Shown piece after piece: positions 1 through 10,454 of a stretch of DNA of 10,454 nucleotides (the stretch's first letter is position 1; every line of letters begins with the position of its first letter). Position numbers and translations under genes: made by a program. The stretch comes from Promethearchaeota archaeon. Lineage in GTDB: Archaea; Asgardarchaeota; Lokiarchaeia; Sigynarchaeales; SOKP01. The notes beneath the pieces were generated by a model. It was not told the origin of the DNA and ran no database searches. It worked only from the letters and a program-made list of their open reading frames with translations. Where the stretch lies: NCBI GenBank assembly GCA_030668025.1, contig DAOUUT010000117.1:1-10454 (forward strand), read 5' to 3'.

Positions 1-347
1 AAAGTTATAAAAATCGAGTTTTTATAACCGCTTTTGTAAAAAACCTTGATTAGCAGTGCGATAACTATAAAATTTATAATTAACACCACTACCGAAATGA
101 TAACGTTAACAGATGCAATTAAATTCAAATCTACGCCAATATTAATTAAATAACCCGTTATCAAATTGTTTAAAAAGCTTAAAACAAAGAGCAAAATTAA
201 AATCCAGATCGCATTAACTAATACTGCAGTTTTATATGGTTTACGACACTCAAATTTGTCTGTAAAAAATTTAGTTAAAAAAATACCTCCAAAAAGGATT
301 ATATAACTAAAAATTACATATATAGTAATAAACAGTAGATTTGACAT
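1..347 (-). CDS. Multi-pass membrane protein, partial (C-terminus off the left edge)
   Basis: An open frame of 115 codons runs from an ATG at 347 to the window edge without a stop, and an in-frame TAA lies 25 bases upstream (372-374). The translation has three strongly hydrophobic segments, at about residues 4-25, 41-64 and 77-102. A short Lys/Arg-rich loop (CRKPYK, 34-39) sits between the first two, and a basic stretch (KVFYKSGYK) follows the third. This is the pattern of a small polytopic membrane protein. I recognise no family motif. There is no clear Shine-Dalgarno sequence before the ATG, so it may have a short leader or be leaderless. It reads in the same direction as the sugar operon and lies beyond that operon's last gene, but a 263-base gap and its own TATA-like box suggest separate transcription. 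Confidence 0.7.
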   Translation of the reverse strand, partial: MSNLLFITIYVIFSYIILFGGIFLTKFFTDKFECRKPYKTAVLVNAIWILILLFVLSFLNNLITGYLINIGVDLNLIASVNVIISVVVLIINFIVIALLIKVFYKSGYKNSIFIT

Positions 348-390
348 AATTTTATGAATATCTTGTACGAGTTATAAGAATTCTCTTCTT

Positions 391-406
391 TAAATAAATA
401 TAAAAT
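391..406 (-). promoter_or_regulatory. Candidate TATA box for the membrane-protein gene
   Basis: On the minus strand this reads ATTTTATATTTATTTA, a TATA-like stretch about 45-60 bases before the ATG at 347. That would place a start site near 365-370 and give a short leader. The whole region is AT-rich, so such matches are common by chance. Confidence 0.25.
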
Positions 407-522
407 TATTTAAAAAGATTTTCTTAATCTTATCGTACAAAAAACCCCATTAAATTCCCCTAACCTTTAATTAGTAAATTTGAATTAATATTCTTACTAA
501 ATAAAAATAGACATATTATAAA

Positions 523-587
523 TTACATAGTACCAAGATCAAGAGTTTTATCTCGGATTTGATTATCATCACTAATTTTGCTATTTG
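523..587 (-). pseudogene. Orphan C-terminal fragment of the sugar nucleotidyltransferase gene
   Basis: Read on the minus strand, this encodes the last 20 or so residues of the neighbouring nucleotidyltransferase (compare its 3' end at 1887-1954). Two differences stand out: Ile becomes Asn once, and the tail ends in GTM-stop instead of GTNI-stop. The TAA stop is at 523-525. An in-frame TAA at 601-603 closes the frame upstream and there is no suitable start, so the fragment cannot be a gene by itself. It begins about 24 bases past the stop of the GH57 gene. It is best explained as the displaced original 3' end of the nucleotidyltransferase, or as a duplicated copy of it. Confidence 0.75.
528..587. 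repeat. 60-bp direct repeat, left copy
   Basis: This stretch matches 1895-1954 in the same orientation at 59 of 60 bases; the only difference is T at 563 against A at 1930. Similarity ends sharply at both edges. The pair flanks the GH57 gene, with the two copies 1367 bp apart start to start. Confidence 0.95.
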
Positions 588-610
588 TACCTAGAATAGA
601 TTACTATTTT

Positions 611-1813
611 TTATAGCGATAAAATAATTTTATTTTGAACTTTTAACATATCCTCCATAATTAGTTCCATAGCATCTTTAATATCTGGCGCATTGTCTGG
701 AATACTTCTCTTAGCATTGATACTTGCCATTAATACTTCGTTTAACCCTCGTAGAATCATATCTGGAGAATACCAAGGCCTTTTAGAAGCCCACCATTGC
801 TGACAGCTGTGAATCCCTCGATCTAACAAATTTCTCGCATTGTCAAAAATTGATCTTTTTTCATCATCCATGCTATTTCGATATTTATTTGATAAATGGA
901 TTAAAGTCAGAGCATACATAAAAAACCGGTGCTGTTCAATGTGAATTTCATTGTTAGGATTAAACCAAAGAGGAAAAGGAATGTCGTGAGCTATATCATA
1001 AGGCATAGTTGACCAAGAAGATGCTCGTGGATTCTGTGTATTGCCTTTAGGGAACTTATCTATGATTTCTGAAATATTACATAACTTAACATCGTTACGA
1101 TGAGGGAGAGCATCAAAAAGGGGTATCAAAAAATTATTTATAGCATGTTTTACATGATGCCCGAACGTTTCCCCATCCATAGCGAGAATTACATAATAAT
1201 CCTCTGATGTTTGTTTGTAATGTAATCGATTTATAAACGCATCAACAGTATTAATTTTATCAAATGCACAATCAATAGAGATATAGTCGTCTCTAAATAG
1301 TAAATTTAAACCGTTAGGATGTTGTGATATAAAAGTTGTAGGAAATTCGGGCAAAGTATTTGCTATACCGCTCATAATAATCCAATCGTAACCCATTTCT
1401 TCTACAACCGATAATACTTCTTCAGAAACAGCCATTTCAGGAGGGAAAAAACCTCTCGGTTTATATAATTCTCCAAAAAATTGTTGATTCGTTTCATAAT
1501 TCAATTCAATTTGGCGTCTAATTTCTGGTGATGGAATAAGAGGTAATAGAGGATGGAATTTTCCAGAACCAGCAAATTCTACTTGACCTCTAGATGCAAG
1601 TGTTGTTAACCCTTCTATGATATCTATATATCCAAAATCATTTAATTGTTCAGTCAAGGTACCATTAATATTTAAAGTTATTTTCGCAGAGGGATGATTT
1701 CTTAAAGCTTCAATTATTGGTCTATAAGATTCATTTGCAATTTGTTTGATTACAAAGGGTAATTGCACTGGTGGTTGATAGATATGAAATAAAAACGCAA
1801 AATATACAACCAT
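611..1813 (-). CDS. Glycoside hydrolase family 57 protein (alpha-amylase / glucanotransferase type)
   Basis: This 400-residue protein shows the GH57 conserved regions in order. The first is HIYQPP at 10-15, at the end of the first strand of the barrel. The second is GSGKFHPLLPL at 82-92. The third is FPPEMAVS at 123-130, with Glu126 the likely nucleophile. The fourth is AMDGETFGHH at 211-220, with Asp213 the likely acid/base. A CQQWWASKRPW stretch (337-347) lies in the C-terminal helical part. Family members cleave or transfer alpha-1,4- or alpha-1,6-glucan bonds; which reaction applies here cannot be read from sequence. There is no signal peptide, so it should act in the cytoplasm. The ATG sits just before motif 1 and an in-frame TAA lies five codons upstream. 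A GGGAG Shine-Dalgarno-like element is rather far, about 16 bases away. It is the last gene of the putative operon, 73 bases after the nucleotidyltransferase, and is bracketed by the 60-bp repeats. Confidence 0.9.
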   Translation of the reverse strand: MVVYFAFLFHIYQPPVQLPFVIKQIANESYRPIIEALRNHPSAKITLNINGTLTEQLNDFGYIDIIEGLTTLASRGQVEFAGSGKFHPLLPLIPSPEIRRQIELNYETNQQFFGELYKPRGFFPPEMAVSEEVLSVVEEMGYDWIIMSGIANTLPEFPTTFISQHPNGLNLLFRDDYISIDCAFDKINTVDAFINRLHYKQTSEDYYVILAMDGETFGHHVKHAINNFLIPLFDALPHRNDVKLCNISEIIDKFPKGNTQNPRASSWSTMPYDIAHDIPFPLWFNPNNEIHIEQHRFFMYALTLIHLSNKYRNSMDDEKRSIFDNARNLLDRGIHSCQQWWASKRPWYSPDMILRGLNEVLMASINAKRSIPDNAPDIKDAMELIMEDMLKVQNKIILSL

Positions 1814-1886
1814 AATACTAGATATTTATCTCCCTTTCTTTATTTTTATTTAGTTAAAATTAGTGGAAAATTATTTTATTATTTAA

Positions 1887-3035
1887 TTATATATTAGTAC
1901 CAAGATCAAGAGTTTTATCTCGGATTTGAATATCATCACTAATTTTGCTATTTGGGGCAACAATCGCGTTATGTAGAACAACATTATCGCCGATTTCACA
2001 ATTATTACAAACGATCGAATTATCAAAATGACAACCAGCTCCAATCTTTACGTTGTCCCAGATAACGCTTTTCTCGATTACCGTATCTTCTCCGATTGTA
2101 ACTTGGGATCCAATTGAACATAACGGTTTAATTTTTACTCGATTAAGTAATTCTACAAATTCACCAAAACAAGACGGTTTTTCGATCGATACATTTTGTC
2201 CCGAATTAATAACGCCCATTACATAAATTCCATCGTATTCCTCACCATTTGGGGTGATCGGCCACGAATATTTACGTAACAAGTCCCAATTTGCCCACAG
2301 ATAGGTTTGAGTGTTTCCACAGTCAAGCCAATAATAATTTTTAACAAATCCATATAAATCGTAATTATTATCAAGGAGATAAGGGAAAACTTCCCCCCCA
2401 AAATCCATTAAGCCCGTTTCTTGTAAGATACTATCAATCTCTTTATTAAAGCAATAAATTCCTGTGTTTATTATGTTTGTATGTAAAAATAAATCGGTTC
2501 TTTGAGCCATACTACTTAAATACAGTTCCATAGGGGCAGGTTTTTCTAAGAAGAGATAAATTTTTCTATTTTGATCGAGAAGCACAACTCCATATTGACT
2601 CGTATGACTTTCGCTGGTTTTCATGGAAATAGTAGCAGTTCCCATTTTTTCTGAATGGAAATCCATAAAATCCCTCATTGGGAGGTTTGTTACGATATCT
2701 GCCATGCCAACAACAATCTTTTCGGAATCAATCTCATTAGCTAATAATCGGTAAGCATCGGCCGTACCATGACTCTCTTGAATCATACATTCAAGTTCAA
2801 CATCTCCTAACTTATCGGGGGTCCATGTTTTTTCCACGTATTCTTTTAATTCTTTACCCATATAAGCTAAAGCAAGAATTATATGCTTGATATCCGCAAA
2901 TATTAAGTGAGCAATAGAATAATCCACCATAGCTTTATTAGTTACTTTTACAAGCGGTTTTGGAACGAGTGATGTTAAAGGCATCAACCTCGATCCCTTT
3001 CCTCCCGCTAATATTATGGCAGACCATTCTCGCAT
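1887..3035 (-). CDS. Sugar-1-phosphate nucleotidyltransferase with left-handed beta-helix tail
   Basis: The protein makes an NDP-sugar from a sugar-1-phosphate and an NTP. The N-terminal Rossmann-like domain starts with LAGGKGSRLMPLT (9-21) and PKP at 25-27, the nucleotide-binding signature; Ser replaces the commoner Thr in GGxGTR. Further motifs are GMAD (Asp113, likely metal ligand), LEKP at 163-166 (sugar binding), NTGIY at 190-194 and YWLDCG at 235-240. Residues about 305-375 are imperfect hexapeptide repeats (IGSQVT, IGEDTV, IGAGCH, IGDNVV), predicting a left-handed beta-helix as in GlgC/GlmU-type enzymes. At 382 residues it is of normal length. The base and sugar specificity (ADP-, UDP- or dTDP-glucose, or GlcNAc) cannot be decided. 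A GTGAGAG element lies about seven bases before the ATG. It is followed by the GH57 gene and preceded by the GalT-like gene, and its last 60 bases are duplicated at 528-587. Confidence 0.92.
   Translation of the reverse strand: MREWSAIILAGGKGSRLMPLTSLVPKPLVKVTNKAMVDYSIAHLIFADIKHIILALAYMGKELKEYVEKTWTPDKLGDVELECMIQESHGTADAYRLLANEIDSEKIVVGMADIVTNLPMRDFMDFHSEKMGTATISMKTSESHTSQYGVVLLDQNRKIYLFLEKPAPMELYLSSMAQRTDLFLHTNIINTGIYCFNKEIDSILQETGLMDFGGEVFPYLLDNNYDLYGFVKNYYWLDCGNTQTYLWANWDLLRKYSWPITPNGEEYDGIYVMGVINSGQNVSIEKPSCFGEFVELLNRVKIKPLCSIGSQVTIGEDTVIEKSVIWDNVKIGAGCHFDNSIVCNNCEIGDNVVLHNAIVAPNSKISDDIQIRDKTLDLGTNI
1895..1954. repeat. 60-bp direct repeat, right copy (live 3' end of the nucleotidyltransferase gene)
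   Basis: This stretch encodes the last 20 or so residues of the nucleotidyltransferase, up to two codons before its stop. It is matched at 59 of 60 bases by 528-587. Because one copy is functional coding sequence, recombination between the two would keep a full-length enzyme, ending GTM instead of GTNI, and remove the GH57 gene. Confidence 0.95.
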
Positions 3036-3168
3036 GTTGAATCTCTCACAAAATTACTAATAATTAATTAATAATAGTTATAAATCTAGTTTTAATTGAA
3101 ATTTAAATATTGAGATTATTTACAAAAATGAATATTTGAGTTATAAGAAGATGAAATATAGATTATAT

Positions 3169-4449
3169 TTATTGGTTTAGATATTTTTCTAACGATTTCC
3201 TAACTTCTGCTGCCGCTATATGGGGTAATTTTCTTGCAACTCTCATATCGTCTGCCATTTCTGCCCCACCAATAATTTCGTGTGGAATTATATCAACAAA
3301 CATATGAAAATCCGCATCATAACCGTACGGACAACAATTAAATAAAATATTTCGGTTCTTATCAATTGAGGTATCATCTAAAGCTTGGAAGACCATCTTG
3401 ATTGCATTTGAAAAATCGTTGATTTGGTTTATTTTCAATTGAGTAAACCGTCTAATATGCTCGTGTGGATATGCGCGAATGTGATAATTTCTTACAGGAC
3501 TTCCCGTTGCATAAAAAGTCCAAAACTCCGTCTTTAAAATTATGCGATCACTATCCCCATGAGTAGTTTGACATAAATGACAATTATCTCCCATTTCTTT
3601 AAAAGCTTCGAGGTGTCCTTCTAATCGACTTCCATGACCGTCCATGTTTAAATCGATATAAGTCTGGCCGTGAATACGAGGTTGAGAACCACCAACCTTA
3701 GTTCCTATGTTAAAAAACGGTGAAACGGTAATATCATAATAATCTTTATCAATTGCTTCTTGGACGCAATAAAGAATTGCCGCTTTCATAGATAAAAAAA
3801 TACCGGCTAAAACATCTTCTGGAATTAAATTAAAACACAATGCAGGATAAAAATGCCTTGAGAGGGTAACTAAATTAATGCCCCGTGAGAGCTTTAAATG
3901 AAGAGGTATATTATCCTTAATCTCTTTTTCAGTATCAGAATCCACTATTCGAGCCATAGAAGGGTATCTATTTATTAATGTTAGTGCTTTACAAGAATCA
4001 GGAATTTTTTCTATTTGGTGCGGTGTTTCTAAAAAGGGATTGTCTCTTTTTTTTTCGTCTTCAGTAATAATTATTGTAAAGCCATCACCAATTTGCTTCC
4101 CCCAATCATCGTATATTGGTTTTCCCTCTGTTATCGATGTAAATACATCTTTAAACTTGGATTTTATTTTCCTTGAACAATCATAAAATTGGTCTTTCCC
4201 TTCTTCAGTTTTAAAACCTTTAGGTCTCTTTCCACGAATAGGGCTTAAATAAGCGTAGTGACCGTAGTATCTTACTCGTTCTTTTCTAAAACCAAAGCCC
4301 TTAGTTTGTATGATAACTGTAGATAAAGGGTCCCATCTCTTAATAGGTACATCGTAAGTAGTTTTACCTATAAAATTTTCCTTGCTTATTATGCCCCACT
4401 CCATAAAGTCTGGGAAATCTTTTTTGTTTGGAATTATATCAACACCCAT
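3169..4449 (-). CDS. GalT-like nucleotidyl/phosphoryl transferase (HIT superfamily)
   Basis: This 426-residue protein has the layout of galactose-1-phosphate uridylyltransferase and its ADP-glucose phosphorylase relatives. RWDPLS at 38-43 and SPIRGKRP at 69-76 match the N-terminal GalT signature. INRYP (159-163) matches the substrate-binding NK(F/Y)P loop. GGSQPRIHGQ (253-262) matches GalT's CSNPHPHGQ, keeping the nucleophile His260 and the following Gln262. The second half has CHLC (290-293), a DRIILKTEFW strand (301-310), YPHEH (327-331) and FH at 381-382, together resembling a zinc site. The first-half zinc ligands appear lost: there is no CxxC after the RP motif, and the zinc-binding His of HPH is Arg258. 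The exact substrate is unknown. With the nucleotidyltransferase 133 bases downstream, it probably interconverts hexose-1-phosphates and NDP-sugars. The ATG has no strong Shine-Dalgarno sequence; an out-of-frame ATG lies 14 bases upstream. Confidence 0.82.
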   Translation of the reverse strand: MGVDIIPNKKDFPDFMEWGIISKENFIGKTTYDVPIKRWDPLSTVIIQTKGFGFRKERVRYYGHYAYLSPIRGKRPKGFKTEEGKDQFYDCSRKIKSKFKDVFTSITEGKPIYDDWGKQIGDGFTIIITEDEKKRDNPFLETPHQIEKIPDSCKALTLINRYPSMARIVDSDTEKEIKDNIPLHLKLSRGINLVTLSRHFYPALCFNLIPEDVLAGIFLSMKAAILYCVQEAIDKDYYDITVSPFFNIGTKVGGSQPRIHGQTYIDLNMDGHGSRLEGHLEAFKEMGDNCHLCQTTHGDSDRIILKTEFWTFYATGSPVRNYHIRAYPHEHIRRFTQLKINQINDFSNAIKMVFQALDDTSIDKNRNILFNCCPYGYDADFHMFVDIIPHEIIGGAEMADDMRVARKLPHIAAAEVRKSLEKYLNQ

Positions 4450-4770
4450 AGTTTCTTGATCATATTTTGATTGGATTATACTATTATTAAATATTTAACT
4501 TATAACTTCATAGTAAATTATCACTTTATTCACATATTAATTCATCAAAATTAATTAATCAAAAACATATTTATACAAATTACAATTTATTTAATAAATG
4601 TTAAAATTTGTTCAATCTAACAATATTCAGTCTTTACACAAAAATGTAAAGTATCTATTATATTTTAATTCATTTTCAAACTAGTAAATTAAAAAAAGAA
4701 AAAAAAATTAAGAACTCTATACTGCTAATGGTTAAATTAAATATTTTACGATACTAATTATTAAATGGTG
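4450..4770. other. Gene-free AT-rich spacer, likely holding the promoter of the sugar operon
   Basis: I see no convincing ORF or RNA gene in these 321 bases. On the minus strand, TTAAATATTTAATAATA (about 4482-4498) is a TATA-like stretch about 35-50 bases before the GalT-like ATG and is the best guess for the operon promoter. The stretch also holds the inverted repeat at 4632-4651. Confidence 0.4.
4632..4651. repeat. Inverted repeat, 7-bp arms with 6-base loop
   Basis: CTTTACA and TGTAAAG flank the loop CAAAAA. It lies 120 bases after the RHH gene's stop and about 180 bases before the GalT-like start, all on the minus strand. It could be an RNA hairpin in the RHH gene's 3' region or an operator of the sugar operon. 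No T tract follows directly, so an intrinsic terminator is not strongly supported. Confidence 0.4.
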
Positions 4771-5061
4771 TTAGTGTTCTAATCTCTTTATAATTTTGTA
4801 AGTTTTAAATTCGCGTACTGGTTCAGCTTTCTCATTTATGCTTTCTATTGGTACGCGTACAAAATTTTCATCGTCAAAATCATCAATTTCAGTCTCATTA
4901 TATTTAGCCATATTGTTAGCCAACTTAAGTTCTTTTAAAAGGAAATCTCGGACGGCACACCTAATCAATTCTGAGCGGCTGGGATACAATCCATTTTCTC
5001 CTATTAATTTATTTATAGCACCTATATAACTTTCAGGTACATTAACGGTTACAATCTTCAT
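4771..5061 (-). CDS. Ribbon-helix-helix (CopG/NikR-like) transcriptional regulator
   Basis: This 96-residue protein has the usual archaeal RHH layout. A beta strand KIVTVNVP (2-9) pairs in the dimer and contacts DNA bases. Helix 1 is about 10-23, a GLYPSRSELIR turn and second helix (24-34) follow, and an AVRDFLLKEL helix extension runs to about 45. The PSRSELIR stretch is typical of the family. The tail from 50 on is acidic (ETEIDDFDDEN) and then mixed-charge, and I recognise no ligand domain there. It probably binds DNA as a dimer or tetramer at short inverted repeats. Likely targets are its own upstream region (see 5301-5321) or the downstream sugar operon, but neither is shown. An AAGGCG element about seven bases before the ATG is a plausible Shine-Dalgarno sequence. 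A plus-strand ORF over the same stretch is its antisense shadow. Confidence 0.9.
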   Translation of the reverse strand: MKIVTVNVPESYIGAINKLIGENGLYPSRSELIRCAVRDFLLKELKLANNMAKYNETEIDDFDDENFVRVPIESINEKAEPVREFKTYKIIKRLEH

Positions 5062-5300
5062 TCAATCGCCTTAACCTTAAATTTTTTAGATTTTACTTTA
5101 TATAATTATTTATTGCAAACTGATATATAAATATTGTTTTTTAGTGGGTTAATATATTTTCATAAATATGTTTTTTACCCAATTATAGATTAAAGAGAAA
5201 TTTACCACCAATCATCCATCTTAGGCGTAAAAATAGACAAAAAGGGATAATTCTCAATTTTAATACTTTTTATGAAAATATTTTTGAAAATTCTTTATAG

Positions 5301-5321
5301 TATCTGAAAATCTTTCAGATA
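5301..5321. repeat. Perfect inverted repeat, 9-bp arms with 3-base spacer
   Basis: The arms are TATCTGAAA and TTTCAGATA around ATC. It lies 240 bases before the RHH start and 290 bases after the dehydrogenase stop, both on the minus strand. The short spacer and perfect arms suit a binding site for a dimeric regulator such as the RHH protein. As RNA it would form a weak stem with a tight loop. Confidence 0.5.
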
Positions 5322-5366
5322 GTTTAAGAACTAAGTAAAAATAAAAAATAGTCAATTTTTAAATTT

Positions 5367-5380
5367 AAAAAAAAAAAAAA
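5367..5380 (-). terminator. Candidate oligo-U terminator of the dehydrogenase gene
   Basis: A run of 14 A on the plus strand gives U14 in a minus-strand transcript, about 230 bases after the dehydrogenase stop. Archaeal RNA polymerase stops at oligo-T stretches without needing a hairpin. In such an AT-rich spacer the run may also be neutral. Confidence 0.35.
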
Positions 5381-5610
5381 TATCCTATTTTTCACAAGAA
5401 TATTTGGAAATCATTAAATAAAGCTAATGTATGCACAAAATTTTTAAATTCTAATTAATATGCATGTTTTTAAAATAAACTCTTTAAAAATTAAAAGATT
5501 ATTTTTTAAAACATTAAATCTTAACCAAAAATTTGTTTTTAATTAAAATATTACAACATTTTTCTATTCGAAAATTATTTTAAGCTAATGATTTTTGTAC
5601 AACACAAAAC

Positions 5611-6636
5611 TTAATACTCTTCTTCGAACCTAACAACATTAATCAACTTTTTGCGCCCCTTTGCTATACGAGTAATATTTTCTATTACTTCGTTCCACCT
5701 AAGCAAATCACTGAAAGGAGAGTATCCTCTATGTGGAGATAAGATAATGTTATCTAGCGTATGAAAAGGAAATTTATAAGGGCGCTTAACACCGTCTTTA
5801 TCCGGATTTGGATGATAATCGTACCATACATCTATAGCTGCACCCGATATTATTCTATTTTTTAAAGCGTTGTAAAGATCTTTTTGGTTAATAATATCTC
5901 CTCTCGCAACATTTATCACCAGCCCATTTGCTCCTAATAAACTTATCTCTTTGATTTTTATTAATCCAGATGTTAAAGAAGTGACTGGAACAGCTATTAT
6001 TAAAATATCTATTTCTTTCAAAAATTCATAAAGTTGGTTAAAATTATATTTTTTTGCTAGAGTTGGTAAATCATCCTTTTGTTTATTCCAATTATTTCTT
6101 AAGATGTGGAATTTTACGTCAAAACCCGAGAGAAATCGATGTACCTTCTGATTAATCGCACCATAACCTAAAAGTCCTACTTCCCTAAAACGCAAGGGAA
6201 TTGAAGTCGCATCATCATCACCAGTCCGCCATCTTCCTTTTTTCATCCAATTATGATGGGGGACTGTTTTATTCATAAGAGTTAAAAGTAAAGCAACAGC
6301 ATGTTGAGCGACAAGATATGAATTTCCATGGCCATTAATCAGCGCTATCTTTCTTGTTTTATTTAATCCAATAAATAAATCTAAAAGATGGTTTACACCA
6401 GCACCGGGATTAATGAATACTTTTAGATTAGTTGCGTGATTTAAAATGTTTTTCGAAGGTCTCCATCCAATTAAAACTTCCGCTTCTGGAACTATTTTTT
6501 CTAAATATTCTTCGGAAGTGTTTTTAGGAAATATAATCTTTACATTCGAAAGGTTTTTTAAATTCTCTGTTAAGTAATTTTGAACTTCTTCAGATACACT
6601 AGAAATAAAACAGACAGTTATATTATTTGCATTCAA
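5611..6636 (-). CDS. D-isomer-specific 2-hydroxyacid dehydrogenase family protein (TTG start)
   Basis: This 341-residue NAD(P)-dependent oxidoreductase should reduce a 2-oxoacid to a D-2-hydroxyacid or run the reverse; the substrate is unknown. The nucleotide-binding domain has GLLGYGAIN (154-162), a GxGxxG loop with Asn162 as the third position. INVARGDIINQKDLYNAL (241-258) is the family signature and holds the substrate-binding Arg245. SPHRGY (300-305) provides the catalytic His302. The usual catalytic Glu of DVxxxEP is not evident: the sequence is IDVWYDYHPNPDKDG (268-282) with Asp273 one place early, a variant stretch followed by FPFHTLDNIILSPHRGY. The frame is closed by TAA five codons before the TTG, and the next Met is at 121, so TTG is the only sensible start. 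The nearby ATG at 6632 is out of frame and hits a stop after four codons. A GTGAAG element precedes the TTG. It is divergent from the zinc-ribbon gene. Confidence 0.88.
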   Translation of the reverse strand: MNANNITVCFISSVSEEVQNYLTENLKNLSNVKIIFPKNTSEEYLEKIVPEAEVLIGWRPSKNILNHATNLKVFINPGAGVNHLLDLFIGLNKTRKIALINGHGNSYLVAQHAVALLLTLMNKTVPHHNWMKKGRWRTGDDDATSIPLRFREVGLLGYGAINQKVHRFLSGFDVKFHILRNNWNKQKDDLPTLAKKYNFNQLYEFLKEIDILIIAVPVTSLTSGLIKIKEISLLGANGLVINVARGDIINQKDLYNALKNRIISGAAIDVWYDYHPNPDKDGVKRPYKFPFHTLDNIILSPHRGYSPFSDLLRWNEVIENITRIAKGRKKLINVVRFEEEY

Positions 6637-6771
6637 TTTATCTTCACATTAATCTTAAATTAATAATCTGTAATAACTACTATTGAAATAACCATGTTTT
6701 AAATAAATTTTTATATTCATTTCGTTGATATATTTATAGAAGAATTTAATTAAAATAGGTAGGTTTAGAAA
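6637..6771. promoter_or_regulatory. Divergent promoter region
   Basis: These 135 bases separate two divergently read genes and must hold both promoters. For the plus-strand gene, TATATTTATAG near 6728-6738 is a TATA-like box about 35-45 bases before the ATG. For the minus-strand dehydrogenase, ATATAAAAATTTATTTAAAA at about 6698-6717 is the best TATA candidate. Both matches are weak evidence in AT-rich DNA. Confidence 0.4.
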
Positions 6772-8196
6772 ATGTCTGAAATTAAATTGTTTGAAATCTT
6801 TGTAAATAGCCTTAACTTCGATGTGAGCGAATATTTAGTCGAAGAACTCACAGAACTTCAAAAAAAAATCGTTGACGATGCAGCTTTCATTCTAAAAGAA
6901 AATATCGTAGGTGACGACTCCCCCAAATCATATGGTGGTTCTGTTAAAAAAAATGAGGAAAAGTTCAAGGAATTAATGAAACAAGCTGAACTAGAACTAG
7001 AGAAAAATAAGTACAAAGATATTAAAAAGAATTTAAAAGAATATCTTAAAAAACTATCAGAATTAATTATTAAAACTTGTATTACAATTATCCCCGTAAA
7101 AGAATTGCCATGGACCAATGTTGTTTTTCGAACTATTCCACGGATTACATTCGACGATAAAGTCCAACTTTTAGATAACGCAATTGCCTATTATGGTGAA
7201 ATTAATTGTTTCATTGGTAGGACAACTATCTTTGGAAAGATGAGAGATCCTTCTAGTGAACCACTCTTTGCCCCTTTTATGGGAAATCTTGATTTAGGGG
7301 GATATAAGTTAGAAGAATCTCAAGATAAGCCTAAGTCTCAAGTGTTTTCTTATGTAAACGCTATAATTAATTCATTAGATTCCGCAATAACTAAAAGCCA
7401 ATTAGTTAAATATCACGAAGGATACCAAAGACATGGCGATCCAATCTGCGATTTCTTAATGAAAGATAACGAATTGCTTAATTCCATGGGAAAAATTACT
7501 ACTGCTATAGAATCAGAAAGAAACAAATCAGATATCGCAGTATGCAGTATTGCTGTTCCTTTACCCTCCGATAAAAAAAGTTTAATTATTACTACTGAAG
7601 AAGATCAGGGAAATAGTCGATTTGGTAATTGTTTCGAAGCTTTGTTAAAATTTTCTGCTGCGTGTTGTCAAGTGCCTTCACCAAGTCTAGAAGCCACCCC
7701 TCAAGCAGAACCTACCCCAGGACAAACGGGAGGGCAAGTTAGAACCCCTGGAGGACAAGAATTAAAAGTTTGGTCGGCAGAAGACCTCGCTAATGAAGCT
7801 CAAAAAAGGTTAGCGGAGCAACCAAATATCCCTTCCTGGTCAGAAGATGAATTAACTAAACTTGCTGAAAGTCGCGGATCCGGAATTCCTGAAGGCATGG
7901 AAGTTTGGAAAGAAGATGAGTTGCTGGAGTTAGCCGAAAAAAGGCAAAGCGGAGGATTGAATATACCTGAATGGCAACCTGACCAAGATATGACAGAATG
8001 TTCTAACTGTGGATATGGTTTAAGACCTGGTTGGGCAAAATGTCCTGTTTGCGATACTCCTGTTGGAGAAAAACCTTCTGAAGAAGTTAAAGAGGAACCA
8101 GAAGAACCTGAGGAACCAGAGGTATCATCTGATGAAAATCAAACCGAAGATAAAAACCAAGATCTAGAGCCTAAGGAAGTCGATCCCGATCTATAA
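6772..8196 (+). CDS. Unrecognised protein: coiled coil, Trp repeats, zinc ribbon, acidic tail
   Basis: I do not recognise the N-terminal family of this 474-residue protein. Residues 58-100 are rich in Lys/Glu and look like an amphipathic or coiled-coil helix. Residues 105-300 look like a folded domain of unknown type ending in ACCQ. A Pro/Gly/Thr linker follows (302-330). Then come four repeats centred on Trp334, 356, 379 and 401, spaced 22, 23 and 22; the first three fit W-x-x-[ED]-[DE]-L-x-x-x-A-x-x-R and the fourth keeps only the IPEW start. A zinc ribbon follows: CSNC (410-413) and CPVC (424-427), ten residues apart, with LRPGW between. The tail from 433 is Glu/Pro-rich. There is no signal peptide or membrane segment. 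The layout resembles an adaptor with binding motifs on a flexible stalk. The ATG follows an AGGTAGG stretch. It is 174 bases before the GTPase gene, same strand. Confidence 0.85.
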   Translation: MSEIKLFEIFVNSLNFDVSEYLVEELTELQKKIVDDAAFILKENIVGDDSPKSYGGSVKKNEEKFKELMKQAELELEKNKYKDIKKNLKEYLKKLSELIIKTCITIIPVKELPWTNVVFRTIPRITFDDKVQLLDNAIAYYGEINCFIGRTTIFGKMRDPSSEPLFAPFMGNLDLGGYKLEESQDKPKSQVFSYVNAIINSLDSAITKSQLVKYHEGYQRHGDPICDFLMKDNELLNSMGKITTAIESERNKSDIAVCSIAVPLPSDKKSLIITTEEDQGNSRFGNCFEALLKFSAACCQVPSPSLEATPQAEPTPGQTGGQVRTPGGQELKVWSAEDLANEAQKRLAEQPNIPSWSEDELTKLAESRGSGIPEGMEVWKEDELLELAEKRQSGGLNIPEWQPDQDMTECSNCGYGLRPGWAKCPVCDTPVGEKPSEEVKEEPEEPEEPEVSSDENQTEDKNQDLEPKEVDPDL

Positions 8197-8233
8197 ATAT
8201 CTCCTTTAAATTTTATAAATTAGCATAAAATAC

Positions 8234-8248
8234 TTTTTTCTGTCTATT
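8234..8248 (+). terminator. Candidate T-rich terminator of the zinc-ribbon gene
   Basis: TTTTTTCTGTCTATT begins 38 bases after the stop codon. Pyrimidine-rich T runs of this kind terminate archaeal transcription, and no strong hairpin precedes it. If real, the GTPase gene needs its own promoter in 8250-8340. Confidence 0.3.
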
Positions 8249-8353
8249 TATTAAGGGCTCAAAAGGAAAAAGTTTATAAGAAAGGATATCCATCTAATTC
8301 CAAACTTTTTTTAAGCATTTTTTATTAACATCCTTAAGGAAATAAGGAAATAA

Positions 8354-8395
8354 ATGATTAGGAAAATTTTTTGCTATCAAAAATATTTTTGTTAA
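8354..8395 (+). other. 13-codon ORF overlapping the GTPase start in another frame
   Basis: An ATG at 8354 preceded by AAGGAAATAA is better placed for initiation than the GTPase's own TTG at 8371. It opens a 13-codon frame ending with TAA at 8393-8395, inside the GTPase gene. It may couple or limit GTPase translation. Alternatively, one missing T in the T6 run at 8367-8372 would fuse this ATG to the GTPase frame as MIRKIFLLSKIF. Confidence 0.4.
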
Positions 8396-9408
8396 AACGG
8401 AAAGATTCTCACGCTCTAAACCGCTTCGATATCTACAGCTACCCAGAAGACATTGTAAAAAAAGGTAACAAAGATATCGTTTCAAAAATCATCTATGGTC
8501 ACGATCAAGGCTCTCTAATAGAACCTTGTGGTGAAAACATTAAAAAATTAGATGAATCTAATGTTATAAACAACAGTTCTAACCCGTTTGAAATTGGTAG
8601 CCCTATTCCGCAAATTATTGGCGACCAGAACATATATACTATTTGTATTAATTCAGAAATGCTAATTGGATTAATATTTGAAAAAGAAGATAACCCTTTT
8701 GATTACAAAGAAATTTTTGAAGATTTGACGAACGAATTATTAAATACGGAGAAAAGTTGCTCTTTCGAAGATCAGATGGAAATTGAGAATCTTTTGATAA
8801 CATTATTCATCGATATAAAAAGATACGGTGACGAAATCCTTGAAAAAGTGACAGAAACTTTCTTCCGACCGGCGGCCTTATTTACAAAAGTATTTCTATT
8901 TGGAATTGACGAAGTTGGAAAAAGCTCCTTAACAAGGAGATTAAAAACTGGTCAATTTAACGATAATTTTTTTACTCCAACAAGGAAGTTCAATATAGAA
9001 TACCTTCAAAAAAAACAAGGGGCGATGTCTTGGTGGGATATGCCTGGACAATCCTTATTCCGAAAAAAATGGCTAATTGGTCTACAAGATTCAAATATCC
9101 TCGTTTACATGATAGATATTGCAAATCAATTACGATTTGAGGAGTCTAAAAAAGAATTCTGGGACATTATAACGCGAAATGGTATAAAAGACATCCCACT
9201 CTTGATTTTAGGCAATAAAGTCGATTTAATTAATAACCTTAATCACGATAAAAAAGAACCGCTTGAAAGGACGAAGAAAGAGATTATAGACTTTTTCGAG
9301 TTTGAAAAATTAACAAATGGACGGTGGCAGTTCTTATACATTTCTGTCAAAACTAATCATAATATTGAAAAATTAATAAATTCAATTTTCACCTTAATTT
9401 CACCTTAA
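8371..9408 (+). CDS. Arf-family small GTPase with N-terminal longin-like domain
   Basis: Residues about 173-345 are an Arf-like GTPase with all G boxes. G1 is GIDEVGKSS (178-186, Lys184). The switch I stretch is TPTRKFNIE (202-210), matching Arf PTIGFNVE with Thr204 the Mg ligand. G3 is WDMPGQ (222-227, Gln227 catalytic) followed by FRKKW, equivalent to Arf's R-P-L-W. G4 is NKVD (282-285) and G5 is SVK (325-327). Residues 1-125 look like a longin-type profilin fold: a first strand LSKIFLL right at the N-terminus, a strand pair near IYTICINSEMLIGLIFEK (88-105), then a helix FDYKEIFEDLTNELL. A helical linker (131-165) joins the two. The start is TTG with AGGA 8-10 bases upstream; the frame is closed by TAG just before. 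There is no myristoylation signal or lipidation Cys, so the N-terminal domain may give the membrane or partner contact. The V4R gene follows after 147 bases. Confidence 0.88.
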   Translation: MLSKIFLLKRKDSHALNRFDIYSYPEDIVKKGNKDIVSKIIYGHDQGSLIEPCGENIKKLDESNVINNSSNPFEIGSPIPQIIGDQNIYTICINSEMLIGLIFEKEDNPFDYKEIFEDLTNELLNTEKSCSFEDQMEIENLLITLFIDIKRYGDEILEKVTETFFRPAALFTKVFLFGIDEVGKSSLTRRLKTGQFNDNFFTPTRKFNIEYLQKKQGAMSWWDMPGQSLFRKKWLIGLQDSNILVYMIDIANQLRFEESKKEFWDIITRNGIKDIPLLILGNKVDLINNLNHDKKEPLERTKKEIIDFFEFEKLTNGRWQFLYISVKTNHNIEKLINSIFTLISP

Positions 9409-9510
9409 TTATATACCTTAATTTATCTGATAGTAATTTATATCAACATCATTAAATTTATAACTTAACCAAATAAAATTCTATTATTATCGTAAATATT
9501 AAAGATAGTG

Positions 9511-9530
9511 TAATTTTAGATCTAAAATTA
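9511..9530. promoter_or_regulatory. 20-bp perfect palindrome upstream of the V4R gene (possible operator)
   Basis: TAATTTTAGATCTAAAATTA is its own reverse complement across all 20 bases. It ends 25 bases before the ATG and 11 bases before the ribosome site, so it overlaps the expected transcription start region. A dimeric regulator bound there would block initiation. Regulator unknown. Confidence 0.5.
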
Positions 9531-9541
9531 TTGAATATATT

Positions 9542-9546
9542 GAGGT
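9542..9546 (+). promoter_or_regulatory. Strong ribosome-binding site (GAGGT) of the V4R gene
   Basis: GAGGT lies nine bases before the ATG at 9556. It is the best match to the archaeal 16S 3' end in the window and fixes the start of the V4R gene. Most other genes here have weak or no such site. Confidence 0.65.
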
Positions 9547-9555
9547 AGTTAAATT

Positions 9556-10149
9556 ATGTTCAAACGATTAAAAAAAGAGCTCGAAATTAATATTGAAGAA
9601 AAAGAGGGGCAGTTATTTTTAGGCGAAAAAAATAAAGGAATGCGTCTAGTAATGCTACGTCCTAACGAAATCATGGAATTCTGTGAATTCGCAGGAACAA
9701 ATGCGGATGACATCCTAATTTGGACCGGAAAGACTTTAGGTAAATTATTTATGACAAAGTTCTTCTATGGTAAAGATTGGACCAAAGAAATAATGGCCAC
9801 TAAAAAAGAAGTTGTTTTTGGCACTCTTGAAGCGTTGATGCTCATGGGATATGGTGGTTTAGCTGGTATGTTTAAAAAAGATCATATTATTATAAACGCG
9901 TACGGATCTTTAGCCGTAACGGAAAAAGAAAATATCATGGCAAAAAATTTGTGCCTACTTTATCTAGGTATATTCAACGGCATTTTTGAAGAGTTAGGCA
10001 TCGATGTCGATGGCAAAGAAGTAGATTGTGTTCTAACAGGGGGAAAAAACTGTTCTTATAAATTCGATTTACTCACAGAAGAAATAGAGGACAGTTTAAT
10101 AGACGAAGATCTCTCTGAAGCGAAAGTATCAGACTTTTTGGCTTCTTAG
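9556..10149 (+). CDS. V4R-domain protein (Bet3/TRAPP-related fold)
   Basis: This 197-residue protein matches the V4R (4-vinyl reductase) type of domain. After a charged N-terminus comes RLVMLRPNEIMEFCEFAG (30-47), then a helix with a Gly-rich repeat (WTGKTLGKLFMTKFF, 56-70). A YGGLAGMFKKDHIIINAYGSLAV strand pair (99-121) follows, and the closing motif VDCVLTGGKNCSYKFDLL (156-172) has Cys158 and Cys166 seven residues apart. That Cys-Gly-Cys end is typical of V4R domains, where the cysteines can bind metal. The tail (174-197) is acidic. V4R domains bind small molecules or serve as partners, and the fold is related to the Bet3-type subunits of TRAPP, which activates small GTPases in eukaryotes. 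Its position right after a longin-like/Arf GTPase suggests a role with that GTPase. No membrane segment or signal peptide is visible. Confidence 0.75.
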   Translation: MFKRLKKELEINIEEKEGQLFLGEKNKGMRLVMLRPNEIMEFCEFAGTNADDILIWTGKTLGKLFMTKFFYGKDWTKEIMATKKEVVFGTLEALMLMGYGGLAGMFKKDHIIINAYGSLAVTEKENIMAKNLCLLYLGIFNGIFEELGIDVDGKEVDCVLTGGKNCSYKFDLLTEEIEDSLIDEDLSEAKVSDFLAS

Positions 10150-10356
10150 TAATATAATAACTTTTTAAACTCAATTACTTTCCTTATTTGAAACGAATTA
10201 ACTCACTAAATGGAATTTCACACTAATTTTTTGAAATTAATTAACCCATCTCTCTTTTCCAATCTTCTAAATACCTTTAAATTCACTAAATTATTCTCTC
10301 AATAGAAAAATATAAATTTTAAAATAATATCAAATATAATTCTATTTATAATTATT

Positions 10357-10373
10357 AAAAAAAAAAAAAAAAA
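10357..10373. repeat. A17 homopolymer
   Basis: Seventeen consecutive A lie 21 bases before the last ATG in the window, in the 245-base gene-free stretch after the V4R gene. I see nothing else supportable in that stretch. The exact length may be unreliable, as homopolymers are error-prone in sequencing. Confidence 0.8.
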
Positions 10374-10394
10374 TTGCAAAAATAAGTGAAAAAT

Positions 10395-10454
10395 ATGAGT
10401 AGGAAAGGCGCAAAATTAAAGATTGATAGCTACTCAGGTCCACTCGGCCAAATT
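10395..10454 (+). CDS. Start of an unidentified gene, partial (runs off the right edge)
   Basis: An ATG at 10395 opens a frame of 20 codons with no stop before the window ends. The product begins MSRKGAKLKIDSYSG. An AAGTGAAA stretch a few bases upstream could pair with the 16S 3' end. An in-frame TAA at 10383-10385 and a GTG at 10386 are the only other limits, so ATG is preferred. The base composition is clearly less AT-rich than the spacer before it, as expected for coding sequence here. The family cannot be told from 20 residues. It reads the same way as the GTPase and V4R genes. Confidence 0.55.
   Translation, partial: MSRKGAKLKIDSYSGPLGQI

Follow-up and report, generated by a model that had tools for sequence, protein, structure and literature searches.

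The three consecutive plus-strand genes described here lie in a 10,454-nt stretch of AT-rich DNA from a Promethearchaeota archaeon (Lokiarchaeia; Sigynarchaeales; SOKP01; assembly GCA_030668025.1, contig DAOUUT010000117.1, positions 1-10,454; hereafter the window), and our analysis revealed that their neighbourhood is real and conserved in one Lokiarchaeal family. The open reading frames (ORFs) encode in order a repeat and zinc-ribbon protein (ORF1, 474 amino acids), a GTPase with a longin-like domain ahead of an Arf-type G domain (ORF2, 345 amino acids) and a V4R/TRAPPC3-superfamily protein (ORF3, 197 amino acids), labelled ADA, GTP and V4R1, with intergenic gaps of 174 and 147 bases. These places, gaps and identities agree with what an earlier reading of the letters of the window had given (the original prediction), which also supposed an Asgard origin and an ancestral GTPase control unit. 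Moreover, V4R1 recurs beside different GTPase and roadblock genes in sister families, and these loci, rather than the synteny of the trio, are the better evidence for a link between V4R protein and GTPase. We tentatively take ORF2 and ORF3 for the GTPase and the docking subunit of a TRAPP-like platform with ORF1 as a looser associate, a reading that in our estimate falls somewhat short of an even chance.

The V4R1 loci of the sister families are six (L153-L156, L166 and L192), taken as those whose match resembles V4R1 more closely than V4R2 or other V4R proteins. All six have a second V4R gene, V4R2, after the V4R1 orthologue, overlapping or 2 to 17 bases apart (in L192 the contig end cuts V4R2, and the visible side has no GTPase-like gene), and in four of them (L153, L154, L155 and L166) GTPase and roadblock are encoded beside the pair. 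For example in L153 and L154 the order on one strand is roadblock, protein X (308-309 amino acids), an MglA-type GTPase overlapping X, V4R1 and V4R2; in L166 the roadblock-X-MglA and V4R1-V4R2 groups are convergent, tail to tail; L155 has a roadblock-Ras fusion 35 bases past V4R2; and the stretch of L156 that was examined holds no GTPase-like gene. By sequence the L154 GTPase is MglA (3t12, E 1.7e-27), and a weak match (E 0.013) marks a second roadblock-like stretch of the L154 protein. These loci resemble the bacterial MglA-MglB system, a GTPase with a roadblock protein serving as GTPase-activating protein (GAP) or guanine nucleotide exchange factor (GEF), in carrying an MglA homologue and a roadblock protein, and differ from it by two V4R genes and protein X; the GTPase of the window differs in being Arf-type with a longin-like domain. 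For rough comparison, the 126 ORFs that surround the GTP and ADA orthologues outside the window's family include 10 that are GTPase-like, six of these being the query GTPase itself and three the ORF1-linked F5 family; the association of V4R1 with GTPase genes was recognised post hoc, on inspection of the loci. The supposed control unit is thus supported indirectly as regards the V4R-GTPase connection, while the part given to ORF1, which has other neighbours outside the family, is not.

By its sequence profile, ORF3 is a V4R/TRAPPC3-superfamily protein. The window's own copy scores 23.0 bits against Pfam V4R (PF02830), under the curated cut-off of 31, while 19 of 23 aligned ORF3 sequences match this family at E<=1 (best 2.2e-8), and precomputed PF02830 is found on most of the ORF3 homologues among at least 120 listed. 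Against the PDB, the 23-sequence V4R1 profile finds TRAPPC3 first (9 distinct sequences, E 0.004-0.023), followed by MJ1460 (0.038), Thorarchaeal TRAPPC3 (0.04) and yeast Bet3 (0.27 and 0.29), and these make up 13 of the 14 matches at E<=10. The TRAPPC3 alignment spans profile positions 57-180 of 198, its best E of 0.004 being modest, and the Pfam TRAPP model barely matches (2 of the 23 members, best E 0.026). V4R2 is a paralogue of V4R1 over the full length (hhalign 98.9%, E 2.3e-17); in TRAPP, TRAPPC3 and TRAPPC6 form a pair.

ORF2 is clearly an Arf-type GTPase by its G domain, which matches Pfam Arf (PF00025) with 90.4 bits (cut-off 22.3, E 1.2e-25) and has Arl3, Arl8 and Asgard ArfR proteins as the closest solved structures. 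Its motifs are G1 GIDEVGKS (178-185), G3 D-M-P-G-Q (223-227), G4 NKVD (282-285) and G5 SVK (325-327); across 47 aligned ORF2 sequences the P-loop, DxPGQ, NKxD and SxK residues are conserved in 44-47, the catalytic Gln227 in 45 and N-K-x-D in all. The Arf consensus has WDxGGQ in switch II and an invariant Thr in switch I, and in this family a short N-terminal amphipathic helix precedes the G domain. Neither switch consensus holds across the 47 sequences, switch II reading WDxPGQ with Pro225 in 44 of them and the switch I Thr being variable, nor does ORF2 have such a helix, its G domain starting at about residue 172 behind a predicted folded domain. From the Asgard ArfR GTPases (PDB 8ouk HodArfR1 and 8oum GerdArfR1), ORF2 differs by the longin-like domain ahead of the G domain and by a G3 of D-x-P-G-Q.

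For residues 1-157 of ORF2 an AlphaFold2 model predicts strands and helices at E2-10, E19-24, H35-50, E79-83, E86-93, E97-104, H109-126 and H135-157. This order, b-b-a-b-b-b-a-a, is that of longin domains, which compared with roadblock have lost the N-terminal helix and have an extra C-terminal one (PMC10933270). We call the domain longin-like at the level of predicted fold, because sequence families fail to recognise it; in a VIA-align comparison of ORF2 with solved structures, the coverage is of the G domain only among the 50 matches listed. In the window and in 13 relatives the aligned start codon is either TTG or GTG, and the final residues, KLINSIFTLISP, contain no cysteine.

The eukaryotic TRAPP core contains Bet3/TRAPPC3-TRAPPC6 with the longin pair TRAPPC1/C4, and acts on Rab1. 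The window is alike in that the V4R1 profile matches TRAPPC3 and that a longin-like domain and a small GTPase are encoded next door; it is unlike in that ORF2 fuses the two and is Arf-type where the GTPase of TRAPP is Rab. In TRAPP, longin and Bet3-type subunits stand around the GTPase, and MglB-type roadblock dimers bind MglA (PMC10933270). Because what the contexts share is V4R1 in the vicinity of a GTPase system with longin or roadblock, V4R1 is favoured as a docking or ligand-sensing subunit. In such a platform, whose physical contacts, direction of regulation and membrane site we infer, the longin-like domain of ORF2 would dimerise or else fold back onto the G domain of the same protein, which is how longin and roadblock domains behave around small GTPases; V4R1, as a dimer or together with V4R2 (its unlinked paralogue), would bind this longin platform like Bet3/TRAPPC3 flanking the longin pair; V4R1 would tune the nucleotide state of the GTPase according to membrane or a hydrophobic ligand; and ORF1 would probably be an adaptor or effector acting through its zinc ribbon and W-repeats.

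The domain architectures themselves are already published, namely Asgard longin-GTPase fusions, V4R/TRAPPC3 proteins and a Heimdallarchaeal longin-TRAPPC3 fusion (PMC10933270). The MK-D1, Thor and Heimdall proteins of that account have the same domain types, with Rag/Arf-like GTPase domains that carry a fused longin or roadblock; however, the GTPase genes of MK-D1 are generally not in operons with roadblock, longin or TRAPPC3, whereas V4R1 here repeatedly adjoins GTPase genes. MK-D1 is credited there with 74 small-GTPase-related sequences, and its genome layout hampers the matching of GTPases to GAPs or GEFs (PMC10933270). In another Lokiarchaeon, longin and Arf-like families are reported as enriched (PMC9834061). 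We found no account of the trio or of V4R1-GTPase neighbourhoods, nor an earlier report of V4R-GTPase gene linkage, in the open-licence literature. Such recurrent linkage in other Lokiarchaea provides concrete protein pairs, by which an archaeal start of TRAPP-type GTPase control would become testable.

As for the trio itself, each gene was sought in 79 genomes of the order, 65 from the window's family and 14 from three sister families, the closest compared genome having 24% of the window's sampled words in common with it. One best place was taken per genome, with two V4R pieces of G008 merged and weaker V4R hits uncounted, and the second ORF1 piece of G018 and the second GTP piece of G027 were left out of the trio counts. 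In the window's family 55 genomes have all three genes, 7 have none and 3 have a single gene, each at a contig end; in 48 of the 55 complete sets the trio is adjacent on the same strand within 400 bases, with median gaps between match ends of 191 and 137, so the neighbourhood extends far beyond one genome, and the lack of any conserved neighbourhood that could have undone the original prediction is not what we see. Among the exceptions, V4R lies elsewhere in G032 and G072 and ORF1 in G036, the displaced gene being nonetheless retained in the genome; in G085 ORF1 and GTPase are on separate contigs, each near a contig end; extra sequence separates them in G037 and G069; and the gap of 407 in G060 comes from a partial match. 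The Asgard origin also stands, since all 46 loci encoding ORF1 relatives in the public genome set are titled Lokiarchaeota or Lokiarchaeia; source names on single proteins add Hermod-, Thor- and Hodarchaeota and one bacterium, which look like loose labels of metagenome-assembled genomes.

The word ancestral is not supported. With the thresholds applied, 8 of the 14 sister-family genomes have ORF1, 6 have the GTPase and 4 have V4R1; only G041 has all three, spread over three contigs. Because the three are never adjacent in these genomes, the trio is a family-level arrangement. Among 180 genomes from the phylum with a completeness of 80% or more, 61 match the V4R profile at E<=1e-5, and the 13 of these that lie outside the order give weak matches (best E 2.6e-10), mostly in longer open frames.

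Several results weigh against a TRAPP-like platform. In ORF2, switch I position 204 (window 8980-8982) has T in 25 of the 47 sequences, S in 11 and N in 10, which is odd for a standard switch; for the N-terminal domain, no longin model is among the families that any of 23 members matches at E<=1, and a PDB profile search with it is empty at E<=10, so that the topology comes from the model only (mean pLDDT 74, pTM 0.52). GTP and V4R1 are never adjacent in the 14 sister-family genomes. MglA and V4R1 are 400 (L153) and 455 (L154) bases apart, and for this reason a single transcript is uncertain there. The V4R2 profile fails to find TRAPPC3, and V4R2 also occurs where no GTPase adjoins it (L160-L163 and L167). 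Moreover, for Asgard V4R/TRAPPC3 members ligand binding is the view favoured in PMC10933270, and V4R proteins may simply bind ligands.

A different explanation, which we hold possible though doubtful, concerns the synteny of the trio: the genes would be bystanders in a slowly rearranging block with no common function, the GTPase regulating itself in cis via its longin-like domain, V4R1 binding a ligand, and ORF1 belonging with older neighbours (an RHH regulator, VWA, a TPR-like protein and a Rag-type GTPase). In pair counts over 46 loci, restricted to those with >1500 bases of room and to ORFs of at least 80 amino acids, the trio pairs ADA-GTP (43/44) and GTP-V4R (38/40) are tight, but flanking pairs with no GTPase role are as tight (GALT-RHH 35/35, DHD-ADA 30/30, NTPT-GALT 31/33), as is F5-VWA (26/27); looser are RHH-DHD (24/41), V4R-CODH (21/37), CODH-F5 (18/28) and VWA-F10 (12/18). 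Since unrelated neighbours are equally conserved, synteny alone is little proof of shared function. The loss of the trio is not specific either, because contig ends or neighbour rearrangement affect all seven of the 65 genomes without it: contig ends cut the region short in G024, G031 and G034, and in the remaining four the neighbouring genes too are rearranged or not found. In addition, alignment of the window with 13 loci over the upstream regions shows that an AT-rich promoter-like block is kept ahead of each gene. As each gene has its own, three transcripts are likelier than one and the trio is probably transcribed from separate promoters, in line with the doubt on co-transcription already voiced in the original prediction. 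Outside the family, ORF1 orthologues in L145-L148 adjoin RHH, VWA, F11, F5 or proteasome-like genes and not GTP or V4R1, and GTP orthologues in L139-L144 adjoin neither partner. What speaks against mere bystanders is that the ADA-GTP-V4R run persists in the divergent loci L134-L137, where NTPT, GALT and DHD no longer adjoin it, and that V4R1 is near GTPase genes again in four of six loci elsewhere.

A bolder form of the TRAPP-like reading, which we consider unlikely, is a Lokiarchaeal primitive TRAPP, in which a V4R1/V4R2 heterodimer would dock on the roadblock or longin platforms of MglA, roadblock-Ras and longin-Arf GTPases, rewired between lineages by moves of V4R genes. If this were true, the Bet3-longin-GTPase partnership would have begun as an interchangeable archaeal module for GTPase control, and one version of it would lie close to a machine for type IV filaments or secretion. 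It is also conceivable, though we find it improbable, that V4R1 serves above all as partner to V4R2 at a locus for type IV filaments or secretion, and that its place beside ORF2 would be a relocation, either rewired to a new GTPase or idle: a T2SSE-type ATPase gene is near V4R2 both in L159 (f1, the window's family) and in L153 (f2), and V4R1 beside V4R2 is seen only outside f1, but V4R2 in L163 and L167 has other neighbours. A vesiculation module like haloarchaeal ArvA-ArvB-ArvC, the nearest tested set of GTPase plus zinc-ribbon gene (PMC10927574), is the least probable by a little. In it the Arf-type GTPase would drive membrane budding, with ORF1 restraining it as a GAP-like factor and V4R1 replacing ArvB as positive factor. 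The three-part plan of small GTPase, zinc-ribbon protein and third conserved gene is shared, and arvA and arvB knockouts lower vesicles while that of arvC raises them (PMC10927574). Against this, ORF1 and ORF3 have no Pfam match to DUF2072 or DUF2073 (E<=1), the window trio has V4R and longin-like domains instead, the word longin is absent from the text of PMC10927574, and ORF1 is unlinked to the GTPase outside the window's family.

Further V4R loci add some detail. Of the seven weaker-match V4R stretches inspected outside the family, L166 is the V4R1 locus above, L167 is V4R2 (score 160 vs 32) with no GTPase-like gene labelled, and L165, L168, L169, L170 and L171 encode other V4R proteins of 179-447 amino acids, from which GTPase-like genes are separated by about 1.4 to 5.4 kb in L168, L169 and L170. 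The window's family has V4R2 with no V4R1 beside it in L159-L163, near a T2SSE-type ATPase gene in L159, with neighbours that look alike by appearance in L160-L162 and with others in L163. In L153 the T2SSE-type ATPase gene is about 2 kb beyond the roadblock-X-MglA-V4R1-V4R2 run; MglA has been described as acting on the type IV pili machinery in Myxococcus.

Of the three proteins ORF1 is the one with the weakest place in the trio, since its neighbours differ outside the window's family, and a role in the unit is not supported. Its residues 1-300 form a well predicted alpha/beta domain (pLDDT blocks 71-94), and the acidic tail is of low confidence. The pattern W..[ED].L...A..R occurs at residues 334, 356 and 379, in helical repeats, and in 0 of 5000 shuffled ORF1 proteins; among 54 aligned ORF1 sequences, W334, W356 and W379 are invariant, a slightly looser pattern is found three times in 21, twice in 27 and once in 6, and a C-x2-C-x8-12-C-x2-C ribbon is kept in 53, while the Pfam zinc-ribbon matches of the window's ORF1 fall short of curated cut-offs. 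In the same alignment the block KYHExxQRHGxPICD of the N-terminal domain (residues 213-227, window 7408-7452) is invariant or nearly so, and this conservation suggests a putative binding or catalytic site. A sequence match of the N-terminal domain to CCDC47 (PF07946) was sought and not found, with 0 of 21 genomes above the cut-off; matches at E<=10 occur in 2 of the 21, on contigs other than that of ORF1, and likewise in 2 of 14 control genomes. In sister families, the ORF1 orthologues of L145-L148 are near RHH, VWA (with a RING-like end), TPR-like, Rag-type GTPase (F5) and proteasome-like genes in varying combinations; in L149-L152 no RHH, VWA, TPR-like or Rag-GTPase gene is labelled adjacent, and a proteasome-like gene is adjacent in L150 and L151. 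Within the window's family, F5 and VWA also lie downstream of the trio, a few genes away (L093 16400-18994).

Table 1. Features of the three-gene neighbourhood (window positions unless a locus is named)
Feature	Position	Strand	Remarks
Conserved promoter-like block upstream of ORF1	6697..6718	+	TTTTAAATAAATTTTTATATTC; alignment, window and 13 loci
ORF1 (ADA)	6772..8196	+	N-terminal alpha/beta domain, helical repeats, zinc ribbon, acidic tail
Three W..[ED].L...A..R repeats of ORF1	7771..7944	+	residues 334-346, 356-368, 379-391
Zinc ribbon of ORF1, C-x2-C-x10-C-x2-C	7999..8052	+	residues 410-427
Conserved promoter-like blocks upstream of ORF2	8267..8326	+	AAAAAGTTTATAAG 8267-8280; AATTCCAAACTTTTTTTAAGCATTTTTTATT 8296-8326
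ORF2 (GTP)	8371..9408	+	longin-like/Arf-type GTPase, TTG start
Longin-like domain of ORF2	8371..8841	+	residues 1-157, AlphaFold2 model
G domain of ORF2	8884..9399	+	residues 172-343
Conserved promoter-like block upstream of ORF3	9450..9464	+	CATTAAATTTATAAC; alignment, window and 13 loci
ORF3 (V4R1)	9556..10149	+	V4R/TRAPPC3-superfamily protein
Next co-directional gene, start only	10395..10454	+	relative's copy is of the Prismane/CO dehydrogenase family
Run roadblock-X-MglA-V4R1-V4R2	L153 5567-9567		
Run roadblock-X-MglA-V4R1-V4R2	L154 4822-8854		
Run roadblock-X-MglA-V4R1-V4R2	L166 6537-10034		convergent

The Prismane/CO dehydrogenase-family gene downstream of ORF3 is not thought to be part of the unit. 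On the minus strand, window positions 611-4449 encode, by Pfam matches, a GH57 family enzyme, a nucleotidyltransferase with a left-handed beta-helix and a weak HIT-like protein, which probably form a sugar-metabolism group divergent from the trio.

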